DNA from: Sphaerisporangium album
GTDB lineage: Bacteria > Actinomycetota > Actinomycetes > Streptosporangiales > Streptosporangiaceae
NCBI RefSeq assembly: GCF_003323745.1
Contig: NZ_QOIL01000008.1
Coordinates: 62,001 to 126,000, forward strand
Length of the DNA stretch: 64,000 bases
Reading direction: 5' to 3'
The notes under the pieces are model-generated. The model ran no database searches. It was not told the DNA's origin and was given only the letters and a program-made list of their open reading frames with translations. Numbering within the stretch: the stretch's first letter is position 1; each line of letters starts with the position of its first letter. The position numbers and the translations under genes are program-made. Shown here piece by piece: positions 16,419-64,000 of this stretch.

Positions 16419-16463
16419 GTGTCCCGGCCCGGTTCAGGCGGGGCCGTGAACGTACGGGGAACC

Positions 16464-16521
16464 CCGGCCAAGCCCCGCGGGAGCCGGCCAAGCCCCGCGG
16501 GCCCCGGCCAAAGACCGGGGA
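16464..16521. repeat. 20-bp tandem repeat ending in a terminator-like hairpin
   Basis: The 18-mer CCGGCCAAGCCCCGCGGG occurs at 16464-16481 and 16484-16501, and its first eight bases again at 16504-16511, a 20-bp period. The last copy merges into the hairpin CCCCGG-CCAAAGA-CCGGGG (about 16503-16520), 40 bp beyond the purA stop, which may terminate purA transcription (no T tail). Confidence 0.6.
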
Positions 16522-16557
16522 GCAAGACGGACGCCGGGCGGGGGGACCGGCGCGTCG

Positions 16558-56808: not shown

Positions 56809-57423
56809 TCAGCGGACGCCGGCGAGGATCGTGCGCGCCAGGCCCGCCGCGAACTCGTCCACCGGCCTGGGCGACCCGTCCTCGCCCACGAACAGCCGCA
56901 GGAACGCCCGCTGGTAGCACGCGCCCAGCAGCAGCGCGGCCGCCGACTCCGGGTCGGCGTCGGCGCGGATGCGCCCGCCGTCGCGCAGGGCGCGCAGGTA
57001 GCCGGTGAGCGCGGCGAGCGGCTTGTGGGGGCCCGCGCCGAGCTTGCGCAGCCCCTCGCGGTGGCGATCCAGCAGCGCGGGCTCGGCGAACAACGACGAG
57101 GCGATCGGCATGCTGGCCTCGTAGAAGAGGGTGGCGGTGCGGGCGATCTCGGTGAGGCAGTCCTCGGTCGTCCGCTCGCCGGGGTCCTCCGACAGCGCCG
57201 CGATGAGGGAGCCGAGGGCGGGCAGGCGTTCCTCCAGCACCTTCACGAACAGCTCCTCCTTGCTGGAGAAGTGCCGGTAGAGCGCGGCCTCGGACAGCCC
57301 GGCCTCGCGGGCGATCTCTTTGGTGGTGGCCCGGGCGAGGCCGATCGTGCGCATGAGGTGCTCCGCGGCTTCCAGGATGCGCCGGCGGGTGCGGGCACCG
57401 GAGGCCGTGGGGTGCTGGGGCAT
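56809..57423 (-). CDS. TetR-family transcriptional regulator (fatty-acid type)
   Basis: 204 residues from the ATG at 57423, with GAGGTG seven bases upstream. The HTH (about 15-60) reads RRRILEAAEHLMRTIGLARATTKEIAREAGLSEAALYRHFSSKEELF. The C-terminal domain (AALLLGACYQRAFLRLF) is a ligand-binding helical bundle. Sits between fadA and the NAD(P)-binding gene; TGAGTA-type sites occur at both neighbours, so it probably represses both and itself, released by acyl-CoA. That ligand is inferred from context. Confidence 0.9.
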   Translation of the reverse strand: MPQHPTASGARTRRRILEAAEHLMRTIGLARATTKEIAREAGLSEAALYRHFSSKEELFVKVLEERLPALGSLIAALSEDPGERTTEDCLTEIARTATLFYEASMPIASSLFAEPALLDRHREGLRKLGAGPHKPLAALTGYLRALRDGGRIRADADPESAAALLLGACYQRAFLRLFVGEDGSPRPVDEFAAGLARTILAGVR

Positions 57424-57517
57424 CTGCGCACCTCTTCCTTTCTGCCGCTCCAAGGCTCAGACATTACGGACATCCGGCGTCGGGAGGGCGGGGGGCGGGT
57501 ACTCATTCTAGGATGTG

Positions 57518-57529
57518 AGTGAGTACTCA
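57518..57529 (+). promoter_or_regulatory. Palindrome in the tetR/NAD(P)-binding gene promoter region
   Basis: GTGAGTACTCAC, perfect 12-bp palindrome, 24 bp before the start at 57553, with a further GTACTCA at 57498-57504. TAGGAT (57509-57514) upstream may be the -10. Confidence 0.6.
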
Positions 57530-57552
57530 CCAACATACGGGAGAGGTGGCTC

Positions 57553-58188
57553 ATGAAACTCACCGTCCTCGGAGCGACCGGCGGTGTCGGCAAGGAAGTC
57601 GTCCGACAGGCCCTCGACGCCGGGCACCAGGTCGCGGCGGTCGTAAGGGACCCCGCGCGGCTGTCCATCAATCACTCCGCGCTCGAAGTGGTGACCGCCG
57701 ACGTGACGGTCCCCGGCGCGCTGCGCCCCGCGCTCGCCGGCCGCGAGGCCGTGATCTCGTGCCTCGGGCCGAGGACCAGGAAGGACGCGGGCATCGCCTC
57801 CATGGCCACCCGCTCGGTCCTCAAGGCCATGGAAGCCGGCGACGTACGGCGGCTCGTCGTGATCAGCGCCGTCCCGGTCGGCCCGATGCCCGAGGGCGAG
57901 GGCTTCCTGTACGCCAGGATCGCGCTGCCGCTGCTGCGCAGGTTCCTGCGGGACGTCTACGCCGACCTGGCGGCGATGGAGGCGGAGATACGGCGCAGCG
58001 CCACGGAGTGGACGGTCGTGCGCCCGCCGCGCCTGACCGACAGACCCCTCACCGGCACCTACCGGCGCGTCGTCGGCGGCAACGTCCCACGCGGCCACAC
58101 GATCTCCCGGGCCGACACCGCGCACGCGATGCTCGCCGTCCTGGACGATCCCGCGACGTTGAAGCAGGCCGTCGGGGTCGCGTACTAG
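57553..58188 (+). CDS. NAD(P)-binding atypical SDR (NmrA/SDR a5-like)
   Basis: 211 residues; ATG at 57553 follows GGGAGAGGTGG. N-terminal Rossmann signature LTVLGATGGVGKEVVRQAL, then VISCLGPRTRKDAG, LVVISAVPVGPMPEG. YXXXK is not present in the classic form, as usual for atypical SDRs that bind NAD(P) and act as redox sensors or flavin/quinone reductases. Divergent from tetR and probably under its control. Confidence 0.88.
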   Translation: MKLTVLGATGGVGKEVVRQALDAGHQVAAVVRDPARLSINHSALEVVTADVTVPGALRPALAGREAVISCLGPRTRKDAGIASMATRSVLKAMEAGDVRRLVVISAVPVGPMPEGEGFLYARIALPLLRRFLRDVYADLAAMEAEIRRSATEWTVVRPPRLTDRPLTGTYRRVVGGNVPRGHTISRADTAHAMLAVLDDPATLKQAVGVAY

Positions 58189-58239: not shown

Positions 58240-59526
58240 TCAGGCGGCCGTGGCCGCCACCTGGAGCAGGAACGCGGCGTTCGAGGGCGTCTCGCGTACC
58301 CGGTCGAGCAGGACGGTCAGCGCCTGCTCGCGCTCCAGTCCGACCAGCACGCGCCGCAGCTTCCACACGACCTCCCGCTCGTCGCCGGCCAGCAGAACCT
58401 CTTCGCGCCGGGTGCCGGACCCCGCCACGTCGACGGCGGGGTACAGGCGGTGCTCGGCGAGGGCCCGGCTGAGCCGCAGCTCCATGTTGCCGGTGCCCTT
58501 GAACTCCTCGTAGAAGTTGTCGTCCATGCGGGAGCCCGTTTCGGCGAGCGCGGTCGCGAAGATCGTCAGCGAGCCGCCCTCGCGGAGCGCGCGGGCCGCG
58601 CCGAAGAGTCGTTTCGGCAGGTGGACGGACTGGGCGTCGATGCCGCCCGTCAGCGTCTTGCCGCCGTTCGGCGCGATGACGTTGTACGCCCGGCCGAGCC
58701 GGGTCAGCGAGTCCAGCAGCAGGACGACGTCCGCGCCCTGCTCGGCGAGGCGCTTGGCGCGCTCGACGGCGAGCTCGGCCAGCGCGGTGTGCTCGCGCTC
58801 GGGCCGGTCGAACGTCGAGGCGATCACCTCGCCCCTGACGGACTCGCGGAAGTCGGTGACCTCCTCGGGACGCTCGCCCACCAGGACCGCCATGAGGTGC
58901 GCGTCCGGGTGGTTGGCGGTCACTGCGTCCGCGATGGCCTTGAGCACGATGGTCTTGCCCGCCTTGGGCGGCGCGACGATGAGCCCGCGCTGTCCCTTGC
59001 CCACGGGGGAGACCAGGTCGATGATGCGGGTGATCGGGGAGGCGGTTTCGAGGAGCAGGCGCTCGCGCGGGTGGACGGGGGTCAGGTCGGCGAAGCGCGG
59101 CCTGTCCTGCTCCGGGGCGCGCCCGTTGACGGACACGAGCTCGGCCAGCCGGTCGTACGGCCTGCGGGCCGTCGCCTCGATAAGGTCGCCGGGGCGCAGG
59201 CGCAGCCGGTGGATCTCCGAGAGCGGCAGTCGCAGGTCGTCCTCGCCGGGCAGGTAGCCGCTCGTCCTGATGTAGGCGGCCTTGTCGCGGACGTCGACCA
59301 GCCCGGACACCGCACGTAGAGGGTGTTCGCCCTGGTCGGACCGCTCGGCGGTGGTCTGGGACCGGCGGGACGGCTTGGTGGGCCGGTCGGGCGGGGCGGA
59401 TGCGTGGTCGGCGGGGGCCCTGCGGCGGGTCCGCCTCTTGGGGACCTTCTCGGTGGCGTCACCGGGGTGAAGATCGGCGGGGATCCCGGCCGGAACCTCC
59501 GCCGGGATTTCGATGGATACGGTCAT
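58240..59526 (-). CDS. rho: Short transcription termination factor Rho
   Basis: 428 residues from the ATG at 59526, preceded by AAGGA. Rho is a hexameric RNA helicase that ends transcription. N-terminus (1-80) is a disordered Pro/Arg/Ser tail, followed by the RNA-binding domain (YIRTSGYLPGEDDLRLPLSEIHRL), P-loop APPKAGKT, VLVGERPEEV, LLLDSLTRLGRAYN, the Q-loop region GGKTLTGGIDAQ and R-loop FKGTGNMELRLSRALAEHRLYP. The large N-terminal extension of usual actinobacterial Rho (over 600 residues) is missing, and Asp of the usual V-DERPEEV reads Gly. It may be a second rho gene. Long leader upstream. Confidence 0.88.
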   Translation of the reverse strand: MTVSIEIPAEVPAGIPADLHPGDATEKVPKRRTRRRAPADHASAPPDRPTKPSRRSQTTAERSDQGEHPLRAVSGLVDVRDKAAYIRTSGYLPGEDDLRLPLSEIHRLRLRPGDLIEATARRPYDRLAELVSVNGRAPEQDRPRFADLTPVHPRERLLLETASPITRIIDLVSPVGKGQRGLIVAPPKAGKTIVLKAIADAVTANHPDAHLMAVLVGERPEEVTDFRESVRGEVIASTFDRPEREHTALAELAVERAKRLAEQGADVVLLLDSLTRLGRAYNVIAPNGGKTLTGGIDAQSVHLPKRLFGAARALREGGSLTIFATALAETGSRMDDNFYEEFKGTGNMELRLSRALAEHRLYPAVDVAGSGTRREEVLLAGDEREVVWKLRRVLVGLEREQALTVLLDRVRETPSNAAFLLQVAATAA

Positions 59527-59853
59527 GATGATGTCCTTCGGATTTTGAATAAAGGCCATAGGGAATGGCAAGAGAACCGCTCACCAGGAATCGAGACCCG
59601 GTCGACGGAAACGCGGAGAAACGCGGGAATGCGGCGGCACACGCGACCGCGAGGACGCGGGGTACGGCGGTGTCCGACGCCGGCGCGCACGACACGTGGC
59701 TGCGCGAAAGCGGTGGAATTTCGAAAAGGGCCGGGCCGGATGATGGTGGACCGGGCCGAGTGAGAGGGGGTGGGCCGGTGCGCGGGGCCGAGCCCGTCGC
59801 GCTGGAGCAGAGTGCCGAGACTCTGTCATCCGCAAACCTGATTACCCACCTCT
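59527..59853 (-). promoter_or_regulatory. Long leader of the rho gene
   Basis: From the promoter at 59854-59884 to the ATG lie about 327 bp without a convincing gene on either strand. The + strand ORF in this stretch has no recognisable features. Long untranslated leaders that let Rho terminate its own mRNA are known for rho genes. Confidence 0.5.
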
Positions 59854-59968: not shown

Positions 59969-60775
59969 ATGTCGTACGCCCCCAGGACGATCGCCGGTTT
60001 CGAGGTCACACCGCTCCTCGACGCGGTGGGCCCCATGGGCGAGGCGCTGAGGCGTCCGCTGCGGGAGCTCCTGAGCGGCGGGTCGCCGTCCGACTGGGAG
60101 GGCGTGTCCGAGGAGTGGATCCTGCACTTCCGCTGCTACCTGCTGCGCGACCGCGCCGGGCACGTGGTCCTGGTGGACACGGGCATCGGCGGCTCCGACT
60201 CCCCGGCGTCGAGCTGGGCGCCGGTGCCCGGGGGCCTCGTGGACGAGCTGGCCGCCGCGGGCGTCGAGCCGGGGGACGTCGGCACCGTCGTGCTGACCCA
60301 CCTGCACAGCGACCACGCGAGCGGGGCCGTCGCCGAGGGCGTGCCGGCCTTCCCGAACGCGCGGCACGTCATCCAGCGGGCCGAGGTGGAGTGGGTCGAG
60401 AAGTCCGGCCCGAACCCGCTGCTGGAGCGGGTGCTGCGCCCGCTGACCGGGCTGGTCGATGTCGTGGACGGGACCGCCGAGGTCGTGCCGGGCGTCCGCG
60501 TCGTGCACGCCCCGGGGCACACGCCGGGCCACCAGGTCGTGGAGGTCGGGCCGCTGACGCTGACCGGGGACGTGATCCTCCACCCCGTCCAGCTCGCCAA
60601 CCCGGCGATCACCTACGCCTTCGACGAGGACGCCGAGCAGGCCGTGGCCACCCGGGAGGCGCTACTGCGCCGGGCGCGCGCCGAGGGCGGGCTGATCGGC
60701 ACCGGCCACTTCCCCGTCCCCTTCACCGAGCTGACCCGGCTCGGCCCGTTCGGCGGCCTCGGCGGCGCGGGCTAG
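59969..60775 (+). CDS. Metallo-beta-lactamase-fold hydrolase
   Basis: 268 residues; ATG at 59969 after AAGGAG. The zinc motif HLHSDHASG (HxHxDH), the DTGIGG loop and the later APGHTPGHQ and LTGDVI elements identify the glyoxalase II/lactonase-like branch. Cytoplasmic; quorum-lactonase or other esterase function is possible. The 3' end overlaps the convergent MFS gene by 114 bp. Confidence 0.9.
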   Translation: MSYAPRTIAGFEVTPLLDAVGPMGEALRRPLRELLSGGSPSDWEGVSEEWILHFRCYLLRDRAGHVVLVDTGIGGSDSPASSWAPVPGGLVDELAAAGVEPGDVGTVVLTHLHSDHASGAVAEGVPAFPNARHVIQRAEVEWVEKSGPNPLLERVLRPLTGLVDVVDGTAEVVPGVRVVHAPGHTPGHQVVEVGPLTLTGDVILHPVQLANPAITYAFDEDAEQAVATREALLRRARAEGGLIGTGHFPVPFTELTRLGPFGGLGGAG

Positions 60776-61990
60776 GGCCTCCTTGGCGAGCCTGCGCGCC
60801 TGGGCGCGGTAACGGAGAACCTGGACGGCCCCGAGCCCCCACACCGCGAACTGCGTCGCGAACGCCCACCGGTAGTCGTCGAGCGCGGTCCCTCCCCGCA
60901 GGTCGAGGACGACGCCGATGAGCGCGATGACCGCCACGGTGGCCACGAAGCCGCCGCCGTTGACGATGCCGCTGGCCATGCCCATGCGCGCGGCCGGGTT
61001 GAAGGTGCGGGCGAAGTCGAACCCGAGCATCGAGCCGGGGCCGTTCCAGGCCATGACCACGACCAGCGGGACGAGCACCCACAGCGGCGCGCGTCCGGGC
61101 CACAGCAGGACGACCGCCCAGGCGCCGGCCGTGGAACCGATGACGAGCAGCACCATGCGGGAGCGGTGGAACGGGTGGCGTCCGGCGAGGTAGCCGAGCA
61201 CGGGACCGAACGCCATGCCGAGCAGGGTCAGCGTGCTCAGCAGCACGCCCGCCGTGGCGGGGGTGAGCCCCTGACCCTCGACGAGGAACGGATATCCCCA
61301 CAGCAGGAGGAACGCGGCGGACGACGACTGGGTGGCGGCGTGCGTCCACATGCCGAGCCGCGTGCCCGGCTCCGCCCACGCCTCGCGCAGGCGCGGCCGT
61401 TCGGTGACCCGGTTCGGCCGCGCGTCGCGCAGGACGGCCGCGACCATCACCAGCGAGACGCCGCCGAGCGCGGCGGCGGTGAGGAACGTGGGCGTCCAGC
61501 CGTAGTGGTGGAGCGCCTGGATGAGCGGCACGGCCGAGGCGATGGCGCCGACCTGCCCGAGCAGGCCGGTGAGCTGGACCACCAGCGGGTTGTGGCGGGG
61601 TGGGAACCAGACGTTGACCAGGCGGATCACGCTGATGAACGTCATCGCGTCGCCGCAGCCGACCAGCACCCGCCCGGCGACCGCGTCGAGCAGGCCGCCG
61701 GAGATCGCGAAGACGAGCTGCCCGCAGGCCATGACGCCCGCGCCGACGAGCAGCATGCGCTTGGAGCCGAGCCGGTCGACGAGGATGCCGACCGGGATCT
61801 GCATTCCCGCGTAGACGAGGAGCTGGAGCATGGCGAGCGTCGACAGGCCGGCCGCGCCGATGCCCAGGCGCTCGCTCGCCTCGATGCCGGCGACGCCGAG
61901 GGACTGGCGGTGGAACACGGCGATCGCGTAGGCCAGAACGCCGGTCGCCCAGATGATCCACACCCTGCGAGACGCTCTTTCCCCCGGCAT
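60662..61990 (-). CDS. Major facilitator superfamily transporter
   Basis: 442 residues with about 12 membrane helices. The NNP/oxalate-like MFS motif is LVDRLGSKRMLLVGAG between helices 2 and 3; ARTFNPAARMGMASGIVNGGGFVATVAVI lies in the second half. Exports or imports a small anion or drug; substrate unknown. The cytoplasmic C-terminus is Ala/Glu-rich. No ribosome site; TAATAT lies seven bases before the ATG, so the mRNA is probably leaderless. Convergent overlap with the metallohydrolase. Confidence 0.9.
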   Translation of the reverse strand: MPGERASRRVWIIWATGVLAYAIAVFHRQSLGVAGIEASERLGIGAAGLSTLAMLQLLVYAGMQIPVGILVDRLGSKRMLLVGAGVMACGQLVFAISGGLLDAVAGRVLVGCGDAMTFISVIRLVNVWFPPRHNPLVVQLTGLLGQVGAIASAVPLIQALHHYGWTPTFLTAAALGGVSLVMVAAVLRDARPNRVTERPRLREAWAEPGTRLGMWTHAATQSSSAAFLLLWGYPFLVEGQGLTPATAGVLLSTLTLLGMAFGPVLGYLAGRHPFHRSRMVLLVIGSTAGAWAVVLLWPGRAPLWVLVPLVVVMAWNGPGSMLGFDFARTFNPAARMGMASGIVNGGGFVATVAVIALIGVVLDLRGGTALDDYRWAFATQFAVWGLGAVQVLRYRAQARRLAKEALARAAEAAERAEPGQLGEGDGEVAGADQPALGARPAQ

Positions 61991-61997
61991 GAGAAAT

Positions 61998-62003
61998 ATA
62001 TTA
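61998..62003 (-). promoter_or_regulatory. Promoter -10 of the leaderless MFS gene
   Basis: TAATAT on the minus strand, seven bases before the ATG at 61990. No convincing -35. Predicts a transcript starting at the ATG, which excludes the structured element at 62113-62250 from this mRNA. Confidence 0.55.
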
Positions 62004-62112
62004 CTGTTTCGCCGTTTCCGAACCGTTACCGGGTTGCGCGCAGTTCCTCGCCCGCCTTGCCGCCTCGGCCCCGGCCGGCCCCGCGGGGACCGGCCGCCGC
62101 CCGGCGGGAAAT

Positions 62113-62250
62113 GTGTACGGCCCGCGCCTCCCCGTGGCCGCCGCCTCTCCCCCGGAGGCGGCCTGCTGGGCGATCGTCCCCCCTCAGAGCGATCCCCCGG
62201 AGTGGCCGCCTCCCCCGAAGAAGGCGACCGGCCAGGCGCGGGCCGTACAC
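62113..62250 (+). ncRNA. Cloverleaf-like structured element with three UCCCCC loops
   Basis: A perfect 17-bp outer stem (62113-62129 with 62234-62250; begins GTGTACGGCCCGCG) encloses three hairpins. A: stem GCCGCCTC (62140-62147) with GAGGCGGC (62155-62162), loop TCCCCCG. B: stem GATCG (62172-62176) with CGATC (62190-62194), loop starting TCCCCCC. C: CGCCT (62207-62211) with AGGCG (62222-62226), loop CCCCCGAAGA. A further TCCCC lies unpaired after the outer stem's left arm. All loops thus carry C-runs on the + strand. Strand and transcription are unproven; no promoter or T tail is evident. I infer an RNA with anti-Shine-Dalgarno loops, or an inverted-repeat element. Confidence 0.4.
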
Positions 62251-62348
62251 GATCAGGTGGGCCTCGGAAGACCCGTCAGGTGAGCCATGGAACGGACCAC
62301 GGATCGGCTACGGAATGGGTCGCGGATTCGGCTACGGAAGGGCCGTGG

Positions 62349-64000
62349 TCACACGCCGGCCGGGATCCGGTGGCGCGCCCGGAACGTGGGGTCCTCGTCG
62401 TCCCTGTCGTCCTCGTCGTCGCCGTGCGAGAGCTGCGGCAGCCAGCCCAGCCAGCGCGGCAGGTACCAGTTCCAGTCGCCGAGCAGCTTCATCGTGGCCG
62501 GCAGCAGCACCGCCCGGACGATCGTGGCGTCGATCAGGATCGCCGCCGCCAGGCCGACGCCCATCTGCATGAAGGTCAGCAGCGACAGGGTGGCGAAGGT
62601 GGCGAAGACCGCGACCATGATGAGCGCCGCGCTGGTCACCACGCCCGCCGTCGAACGGATGCCGAAGGCGACGGCGTCCTCGGTCCGCATGCCCTTGTCG
62701 TAGGCTTCGCGCACCCGGCTGAGGATGAACACGTGGTAGTCCATCGAGAGGCCGAAGAGGATCACGAAGAGGAACAGCGGGATCCAGTCGGTGATGTATC
62801 CGGTCGAGGTGAAGCCCAGCAGGCCCTCGCCGTACCCCTTCTGGAAGACCAGGACGAGCACGCCGTACGCGGCGGCGACCGACAGCAGGTTCAGCAGGAT
62901 CGCCTTGACCGCCACCACCAGCGAACGGAACGACGTCAGCAGCAGCAGGAACGCCAGGAGCAGGACGAACCCGAACACCAGCGGGATCGACCGGCCGAGC
63001 TGGTCGTTGAAGTCCATCGACCCGGCGATGTGGCCGGTGACGTGGGCCTCGCCGACCCCCGCGAGCGTCCCGGGGATCACCTTGTCGCGCAGGGTGCGCA
63101 CGGCGTGCTCGGCGGCGTCGCCCTCGCCCTTGAGGCCGACGGAGATCCGCGCGACCGTCCTGTCCGGGTTCACCTCGACGCCGAACGGCTCGTTGGCCTC
63201 CCCGGTCGCGAAGGCGCGCTCCTTGAACCTGTCGATGGCCGAGGTGACCTGCGGCGCGGTGACGTCGGCGGCCTTGAGCACGACCACGGCGGGCTCGTTG
63301 CCGCCCGGGAACGCCTGGTCGATCCGCTTGAACGTCTCGGCGATCGCGTAGTCGCCCTGGAGGTCGTCGAAGCCCTGCGGGCCGGTGCGCAGCGAGAACG
63401 CGGGGGCGGCCAGCGCCAGCAGCAGTCCGCCCGCGACGAGCGCGGACACGAGCGGGTGGCGCAGGACCGGCGTCAGCATGGCGTTCCAGACGCGGCCCTC
63501 GCCGCCGCGCCCGCCCAGCTTGCGCGCCCAGGTGACGCGGCCCCCGGTGACGAGGCGGACGGTGCCGTGGACGAGCCGCGCGTCGATCCTGTCGCCGATC
63601 AGCGAGAGCAGGGCCGGCAGGACGGTCAGCGAGCCGATCATCGCGACGAGGACGACGAGGATCGTGCCTTCCGCGAAGCCCATGAAGATGCCGTTCCCGG
63701 TGAGGAACATGCCCGCCATGGCGACCATGACCGTGATGCCGGAGATGAGGACCGCCCGTCCCGAGGTGGCCGCCGCGATCTCGATGGCGCGGCGCTTGTC
63801 CCGGCCCTTGGCCCTCTCTTCGCGCTCCCTGCGGATGTAGAAGAGGGAGTAGTCGACGCCGACGGCCAGGCCGATGAGCAGCATGAGGTTCGGGGTCGCG
63901 TCGTCCACGTGCAGCAGGTGGCTGGTCAGCCCCAGCAGGCCGGTGGCGCCGACGATGGCGGTCATGGCCAGGGCGAGCGGCACCAGCGCCGCGAGCAGCG
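62349..64000 (-). CDS. MMPL/RND-family transporter, 5' end outside the window
   Basis: About 550 residues of the C-terminal part; the frame continues past the right edge, so the start is missing. Membrane segments and the RND signature are visible: LMLLIGLAVGVDYSLFYIRRERE near the visible beginning, GNGIFMGFAEGTILVVLVAMIGSLTVLPALLSLIGDRI, a periplasmic loop (FDDLQGDYAIAETFKRIDQAFPG), then LFVILFGLSMDYHVFILSRVREAYDKG and FATFATLSLLTFMQMGVGLAAAILIDATIVRAVLLPATMKLLGDWNWYLP. MMPL proteins export lipids or lipidic natural products in actinobacteria. Substrate unknown. Confidence 0.92.
   Translation of the reverse strand, partial: LLAALVPLALAMTAIVGATGLLGLTSHLLHVDDATPNLMLLIGLAVGVDYSLFYIRREREERAKGRDKRRAIEIAAATSGRAVLISGITVMVAMAGMFLTGNGIFMGFAEGTILVVLVAMIGSLTVLPALLSLIGDRIDARLVHGTVRLVTGGRVTWARKLGGRGGEGRVWNAMLTPVLRHPLVSALVAGGLLLALAAPAFSLRTGPQGFDDLQGDYAIAETFKRIDQAFPGGNEPAVVVLKAADVTAPQVTSAIDRFKERAFATGEANEPFGVEVNPDRTVARISVGLKGEGDAAEHAVRTLRDKVIPGTLAGVGEAHVTGHIAGSMDFNDQLGRSIPLVFGFVLLLAFLLLLTSFRSLVVAVKAILLNLLSVAAAYGVLVLVFQKGYGEGLLGFTSTGYITDWIPLFLFVILFGLSMDYHVFILSRVREAYDKGMRTEDAVAFGIRSTAGVVTSAALIMVAVFATFATLSLLTFMQMGVGLAAAILIDATIVRAVLLPATMKLLGDWNWYLPRWLGWLPQLSHGDDEDDRDDEDPTFRARHRIPAGV

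Follow-up and report, generated by a model that had tools for sequence, protein, structure and literature searches.

Terminators and RNAs with comparable features

Terminators without a U-tract have been described from mycobacteria as I-shaped terminators, which, according to PMC12288462, lie within 50 bp of the stop codon. PMC8355165 describes clusters of hairpins as well as I-, L-, U-, V- and X-shaped terminator classes. Accessible UCCC loops are reported in PMC3861533 for small RNAs of the staphylococcal kind that pair with Shine-Dalgarno sequences, and an actinobacterial RNA with C-run loops, 6C RNA (RF01066), is described in PMC4046766.

The element considered here comprises 138 nt and lies 3' of an MMPL-family transporter gene in a stretch of 64,000 nt from Sphaerisporangium album, the whole of which is termed the window. 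It resembles the I-shaped mycobacterial terminators in that a very stable, G+C-rich hairpin follows a stop codon, at 25-98 nt in the three known copies, without a U-tract, but differs from them in being branched, with two or three hairpins set into one long closing stem, and in being much larger. With the U-, V- and X-shaped and clustered hairpin terminators it shares the presence of several hairpins at one 3' end and near-symmetric strands. In those classes (PMC8355165), however, the hairpins adjoin one another or belong to opposite strands, whereas here they are nested in the closing helix.

With regard to its + strand, the element is similar to 6C RNA in having C-run hairpin loops, while 6C RNA consists of two tandem hairpins and has no closing stem; the 6C covariance model gave no match to the element at E <= 10 in positions 61900-62400 and found 6C RNA elsewhere in the genome. 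The staphylococcal UCCC-loop RNAs (RNAIII, Rsa family) likewise feature C-rich hairpin loops, a similarity that would apply if the + strand was transcribed, whereas the loops on the strand of the MMPL gene are G-rich. No actinobacterial RNA with the shape of the element was found in the open-access literature, which constitutes weak evidence of absence. The preliminary description of this locus likewise knew of none, but C-run hairpin loops as such are known in Actinobacteria from 6C RNA, present in this very genome. The open-access literature on small RNAs of Sphaerisporangium led to Ms1.

Architecture of the element and its surroundings

The element is delimited by two arms, GTGTACGGCCCGCGCCT (62113-62129) and AGGCGCGGGCCGTACAC (62234-62250), that pair perfectly over 17 bp. 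Read in the sense of MMPL (- strand), the element has the latter arm at its 5' end, and the homologous arms are located in L047:3164-3309 and L048:3182-3274. Three inner hairpins are enclosed, at 62140-62162 (8 bp; loop TCCCCCG on the + and CGGGGGA on the - strand), 62172-62194 (5 bp; loop TCCCCCCTCAGAG on + and CTCTGAGGGGGGA on -) and 62207-62226 (5 bp; loop CCCCCGAAGA on + and TCTTCGGGGG on -). The second of these has the most paired cells after the closing stem when three homologues are compared. On the + strand the loop runs are C5, C6 and C5, and CCTCCCCG at 62127-62134 adds a further TCCCC beside the three loops. In agreement with the preliminary description, the perfect inverted repeat thus surrounds three hairpins, and the C5/C6 runs as well as the fourth TCCCC are found on the + strand. 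Alignment of the element with itself matched its own reverse complement at 69% identity over query positions 4-141.

The MMPL gene (62349-64000, - strand; TGA at 62349-62351; Pfam MMPL, E 3.3e-61) is represented by its 3' part and continues past the window. A spacer of 98 nt (62251-62348, -), in which two copies of TTCCGTAGCCGA were recognized by eye, separates its stop codon from the element. Read along the - strand, the element is followed by a separate, simple and terminator-like hairpin, GGCCGGCCCCGCGGGGACCGGCC (62073-62095), then by a promoter-like hexamer and finally by the downstream MFS transporter gene (60662-61990, -; Pfam MFS_1), for which a search at E <= 1e-80 gave matches in 15 of 60 genomes. 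Within 61990-62010, TAATAT is situated 7 nt before the MFS ATG, and TAAAAT was seen by eye at the same distance from the start in the genomes G003 and G002. The MFS gene is therefore apparently leaderless, as far as can be judged from the sequence, and the element is probably not its 5' UTR, just as had been proposed.

An Rfam scan of 61900-62400 did not reveal any family on the element; its two matches at E <= 10 lie off the element and far below the cut-offs. No T-run following a hairpin was found in the same interval, where the scan for canonical (L-shaped) terminators detected 0 terminator-like sites. A small open reading frame of 74 amino acids (62026-62250, -) starting exactly at a GTG of the element was considered and, by reasoning, rejected, as this GTG is the edge of the palindrome and the lengths of the three homologous elements (138, 146 and 93 nt) are not all multiples of three.

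Fold stability and rarity in the genome

For 62105-62260, fold z-scores of -5.9 (+) and -6.8 (-) were obtained, and none of 200 shuffles was as stable on either strand. Predicted energies of -95.4 (+) and -106.9 kcal/mol (MMPL-sense) correspond to the strong G+C-rich hairpin expected of a U-less intrinsic terminator. In the window copy the lowest-energy fold is, on both strands, a single long rod; the best three-hairpin form on the MMPL-sense strand reaches -101.0 and is thus 6 kcal/mol weaker, while enforcing the stems of the preliminary description on the + strand gives -87.3, 8 kcal/mol weaker than the rod. Branched folds represent the minimum only in the two homologues, with three hairpins in G008 and two in G007. 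The proposed cloverleaf is consequently not the minimum-energy fold of the window copy.

To what extent such a structure stands out was assessed in 864 kb, i.e., the window plus 800 kb of the same genome. Perfect inverted repeats of at least 17 bp with a spacer of 30-250 nt occur twice, the element included, compared with two in 5 x 864 kb of a third-order Markov control, so the stem alone is mildly unusual and not extreme. The triple of run-bearing loops is unusual: starting from 211 hairpins with a C5 or G5 loop (stem of at least 5 bp), three within 140 nt are present at two places. At least two within 140 nt occur at five places, two of them inside predicted genes and three intergenic according to rough gene calls, and the three intergenic clusters are 6C RNA, a conserved RNA candidate dealt with below and the element. 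In a fold-energy ranking over the 864 kb, calculated in 70-nt steps on one strand, the element lies outside the best 40 windows listed. After refinement its + strand energy of -95.4 is matched or exceeded among the remaining top places, which span -72.9 to -104.3, and stability by itself thus fails to set it apart from other strong hairpins. Nor does a branched shape count as evidence on its own, because a survey of 403 intergenic regions, itself too permissive, yielded branched minimum-energy folds commonly among the matches listed for this G+C-rich genome. Another branched fold, containing GGCCAAGCCCCGCGGG twice, is located in the window at 16419-16557, in the interval between two predicted genes on the - strand.

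Distribution and conservation

The element was detected in three of eleven Sphaerisporangium genomes, those of the window (G000), of G008 (locus L047) and of G007 (locus L048), with one locus each, which in all three cases lies shortly 3' of one and the same MMPL gene. By-eye matching to named records assigned G007/L068 to S. corydalis and G003/L094 to S. perillae. BLAST at E <= 0.01 matched 33 of 60 genomes, of which we kept the genome of the window itself and G008 (146 nt, 76% identical, E 5.6e-17), the remaining matches being short with E values of 4.7e-5 or worse; the G007 copy, 93 nt long with two hairpins, was identified by reading the 3' side of the MMPL gene. A query spanning L048:3090-3210 gave 14 of 200 matches, which are not counted because it consisted mostly of spacer and the end of MMPL and included just 29 bases of the element. 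A covariance search, as proposed in the preliminary description, was run with a model (R1) built from the three copies. It returned the same three genomes among the eleven of the genus and, under stricter filters, among 341 of the family, with a single locus each; G000 is hit twice because the model recognizes both strands of a single site. Apart from the reverse strands of the three known copies, matches outside the known element (17.6-21 bits) were weak and left unused. The MMPL gene itself is present at E <= 1e-150 in seven of the eleven genomes, own included, and is followed by the element in only three of these seven, while G003, G006, G002 and G009 have the gene without it. The distance between MMPL stop codon and element amounts to 98 nt in the window, 25 nt in L047 and 43 nt in L048; a U-less intrinsic terminator would be expected within about 50-80 nt of the stop codon.

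With this distribution, the suggestion that the element is a small mobile repeat could be confronted directly. The 17-bp terminal inverted repeats would suit a decayed MITE-like element. Yet there is one locus in each of three genomes instead of many copies, always in the same place, no phage or plasmid matched at E <= 0.01, and the flanks of the three homologues, inspected by eye, show no target duplication; a mobile origin is accordingly regarded as highly improbable.

In the three-row alignment, 87.3% of 134 cells pair and four of 54 pairs are changed on both sides. When the structure was slid along the alignment, 44-49% of the cells paired and 0-2 double-changed pairs were counted, and among 500 column shuffles the proportion of paired cells was attained once and the count of double-changed pairs 18 times. 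This suggests that the paired shape has been kept while the sequence drifts. Compensatory changes, proposed earlier as a check on the structure, are hence present, although as covariation evidence they are weak because three sequences only are available and the tested structure was derived mainly from G008. The first hairpin is poorly aligned (70% of its cells pair) and the third exists in two sequences only. In alignment A3, all three homologues have G-runs close to the apex of hairpins one and two, with variable stems, whereas G007 lacks the third hairpin and G008 has only GAGGG in it.

High self-complementarity, the change in size between 93 and 146 nt and the patchy presence would also be in line with a functionless quasi-palindrome, shaped by template-switch mutation between its arms, or with a cruciform site acting at the DNA level. 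Place and closing-stem sequence are, however, shared by three species, and branched folds are the minimum-energy state in two of the homologues, which makes this explanation a rather poor candidate in our estimation. The element is real and clade-restricted, and common to the species of the window and two sister species.

Strand and neighboring genes

The gene beyond the element differs between the carriers: an MFS gene in the window, a hydrolase-like gene in G008 and a convergent gene for a metallo-beta-lactamase-fold protein in G007. The MMPL gene is therefore the only constant neighbor, and the MMPL-sense strand would be the most consistently transcribed one. On this strand the window loops present GGGGG(A) and not UCCCC; what appears as C-runs in the loops of one strand turns into G-runs when the sequence is read onward from the gene, which corrects a tempting reading of the element.

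That tempting reading, an independent sRNA on the + strand with UCCCC loops pairing with Shine-Dalgarno sequences as in Staphylococcus, can draw on the precedents of the staphylococcal RNAs and 6C RNA cited at the outset, and on UCCCC runs that are found on this strand in all three homologues. On the other hand, Rfam gave no 6C match, and a source of transcription was sought in vain among TANNNT hexamers, the only promoter type scanned, other types being possible. In G008 and G007 none is present within 160 nt before the element on this strand; in the window there are two, 111 and 116 nt from the element and thus at the start of the MFS gene. Furthermore, the equivalent of the + strand is preceded by antisense hydrolase sequence in G008 and by the 3' end of another gene in G007, so that no constant source of transcription exists there. 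An independent + strand sRNA is left with its loops in its favor and the missing close hexamer and G-rich MMPL-sense loops against it, and we consider it distinctly unlikely. Nor does any TANNNT hexamer stand in the 120 nt that precede the element on the MMPL strand, be it in the window, G008 or G007.

What fits best among the options raised in the preliminary description is the 3' UTR of MMPL, because the element follows this gene in all three carriers. In G007, where it lies 45 nt from the stop codon of the convergent gene and 43 nt from that of MMPL, i.e., about equidistant from both, it could serve the convergent gene as well.

The slot after MMPL is occupied differently among sister species (L046, L047, L048, L049 and the window), namely by MFS, hydrolase-like, TetR-like or metallo-beta-lactamase-fold genes, the TetR-like gene being that of G006 as recognized by eye. 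Judging from these sequences, the slot is prone to insertion.

The region following MMPL genes in relatives

Of 80 loci kept from 365 relatives, 34 were examined (L068-L100 and L105), and 33 remained after L092, which ends at the stop codon, was dropped. They include two genus mates, one of which, L068, corresponds to G007 and enters the count through its first hairpin, which is separate from the element. A hairpin of at least eight pairs is present within 170 nt after the MMPL stop codon in 31 of the 33 loci and begins 5-28 nt past the stop in 29 of these 31, indicating that the region 3' of MMPL is a terminator slot. In the window, the element seems to fill this slot in an elaborated form. 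In G007 a simple hairpin of 12 pairs precedes the element.

TACGG[C/T] is shared by the 5' arms of five of the 31 hairpins. The apex, read along the MMPL strand, contains at least four G in nine loci and at least four C in four; the nine are not independent, since five stem from Herbidospora and two from Microbispora. A general association of G4 loops with terminators in this genome was rejected, as just one of 86 hairpins at 3' ends in the genome of the window has a GGGG loop and one a CCCC loop (rough gene calls).

A putative branched terminator without U-tract

On balance, we think that the element is probably a compound, branched and U-less intrinsic transcription terminator that forms the mRNA 3' end of MMPL. 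This reading is favored by its occurrence behind MMPL in all three carriers, whatever gene lies beyond. A polymerase proceeding past MMPL would first produce the GTGTACGGCCCGCGCCT arm, next two or three local hairpins with G-loops and last the closing arm. As has been proposed for I-shaped terminators and for hairpin clusters, the polymerase could then be made to pause by the stacked hairpins together with the G+C-rich closing helix and be released without a U-tract, and the resulting structure may protect the MMPL mRNA from degradation at its 3' end. Being almost identical to its reverse complement, the element could halt transcription arriving from the opposite side too, and in G007 it lies between convergent genes. 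The simple hairpin adjoining the element in the window (62073-62095) and in G007 could itself terminate, in which case the element may be redundant.

If it does act as a terminator, the element would be an end signal made of several nested hairpins that fits none of the I, L, U, V and X classes described so far, and its natural size variants of 93, 138 and 146 nt at one locus would offer a ready test of structural needs.

Other RNAs with run-bearing loops and further features

The conserved RNA candidate mentioned above (G000:C23:275085-275290 = L183:15085-15290, - strand) is situated downstream of an OsmC-like gene and looks like an sRNA from its sequence features. All eleven genomes of the genus have it, the ten copies besides that of G000 being 82-91% identical, and it was matched in 52 of 200 genomes of the family, representing 15 of 68 genera. 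Each of its three hairpins has a GGGGGA loop in the eleven genus rows, and the last hairpin is very stable; in a wider alignment, four rows that come from outside the genus have no more than GGGG in the middle loop. Upstream on the - strand, TAGTGT is present in 11/11 genus rows, while the wider alignment features TAnTGT in nine of eleven rows and TAACGT in two. No Rfam family reached its gathering score, the best sub-threshold match having 27.3 bits compared with a cut-off of 70. We regard this three-hairpin RNA as more interesting than the MMPL element itself.

The candidate bears on the possibility that the MMPL element is a regulatory or processing RNA derived from the 3' UTR, i.e., a part of the MMPL transcript that would be excised from it, RNase III acting on the long helix being one conceivable route, and would bind a protein or a C-rich RNA through its G-run loops. 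Intergenic clusters of C5/G5 loops are otherwise rare, with three in 864 kb (rough gene calls), and as the other two are 6C RNA and the conserved candidate, which has three GGGGGA-loop hairpins and is encoded in the same genome, there is room for a regulatory role. The G-runs retained close to the apex of hairpins one and two, in three homologues with variable stems, point in the same direction. Against this stand the occurrence of the element in three of 341 family genomes compared with 52 of 200 for the candidate, the reduction or loss of the third hairpin in G008 and G007, and pairing with 6C RNA that was no better than for shuffles. Overall, such a role seems unlikely to us. The more specific notion that the GGGGG(A) loops of the MMPL 3' end and of the conserved three-hairpin RNA are recognized by the same partner is very improbable; if true, arrays of G-loop hairpins would be a recognition signal shared in the family by a free sRNA and an mRNA 3' end.

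The gene for 6C RNA (L157:18570-18646, + = G000:C61:224570-224646; 61.3 bits) encodes two hairpins with C-run loops and is present in 11/11 genomes of the genus; one of its loop runs comprises 15 C in G008 vs. eight in G000. A function of the element as a sponge for 6C RNA was rejected, given that 36, 82 and 61 of 200 shuffles paired as well in G000, G008 and G007, respectively, where the longest exact complements of 9, 9 and 8 nt compare with shuffle means of 8.5, 8.1 and 7.7.

Close to the conserved candidate, a c-di-AMP riboswitch (RF00379, 74.5 bits) was found at L183:14518-14657 (-), upstream of an open reading frame of 247 aa. A short Rho paralogue (443 aa) with Rho RNA-binding and ATPase domains is encoded in the window at 58240-59571 (-), and the one other match in the genome is 62% identical and lies in an open frame of 675 aa (G000:C56:224196-225305). 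Also within the window, an imperfect palindrome, GGTGAGTACTCACTCACATCCTAGAATGAGTACCC, is located at 57424-57552 between a TetR gene (56809-57423, -) and a gene for an NAD(P)H-binding protein (57553-58188, +), and from its sequence and position it is a possible TetR operator.
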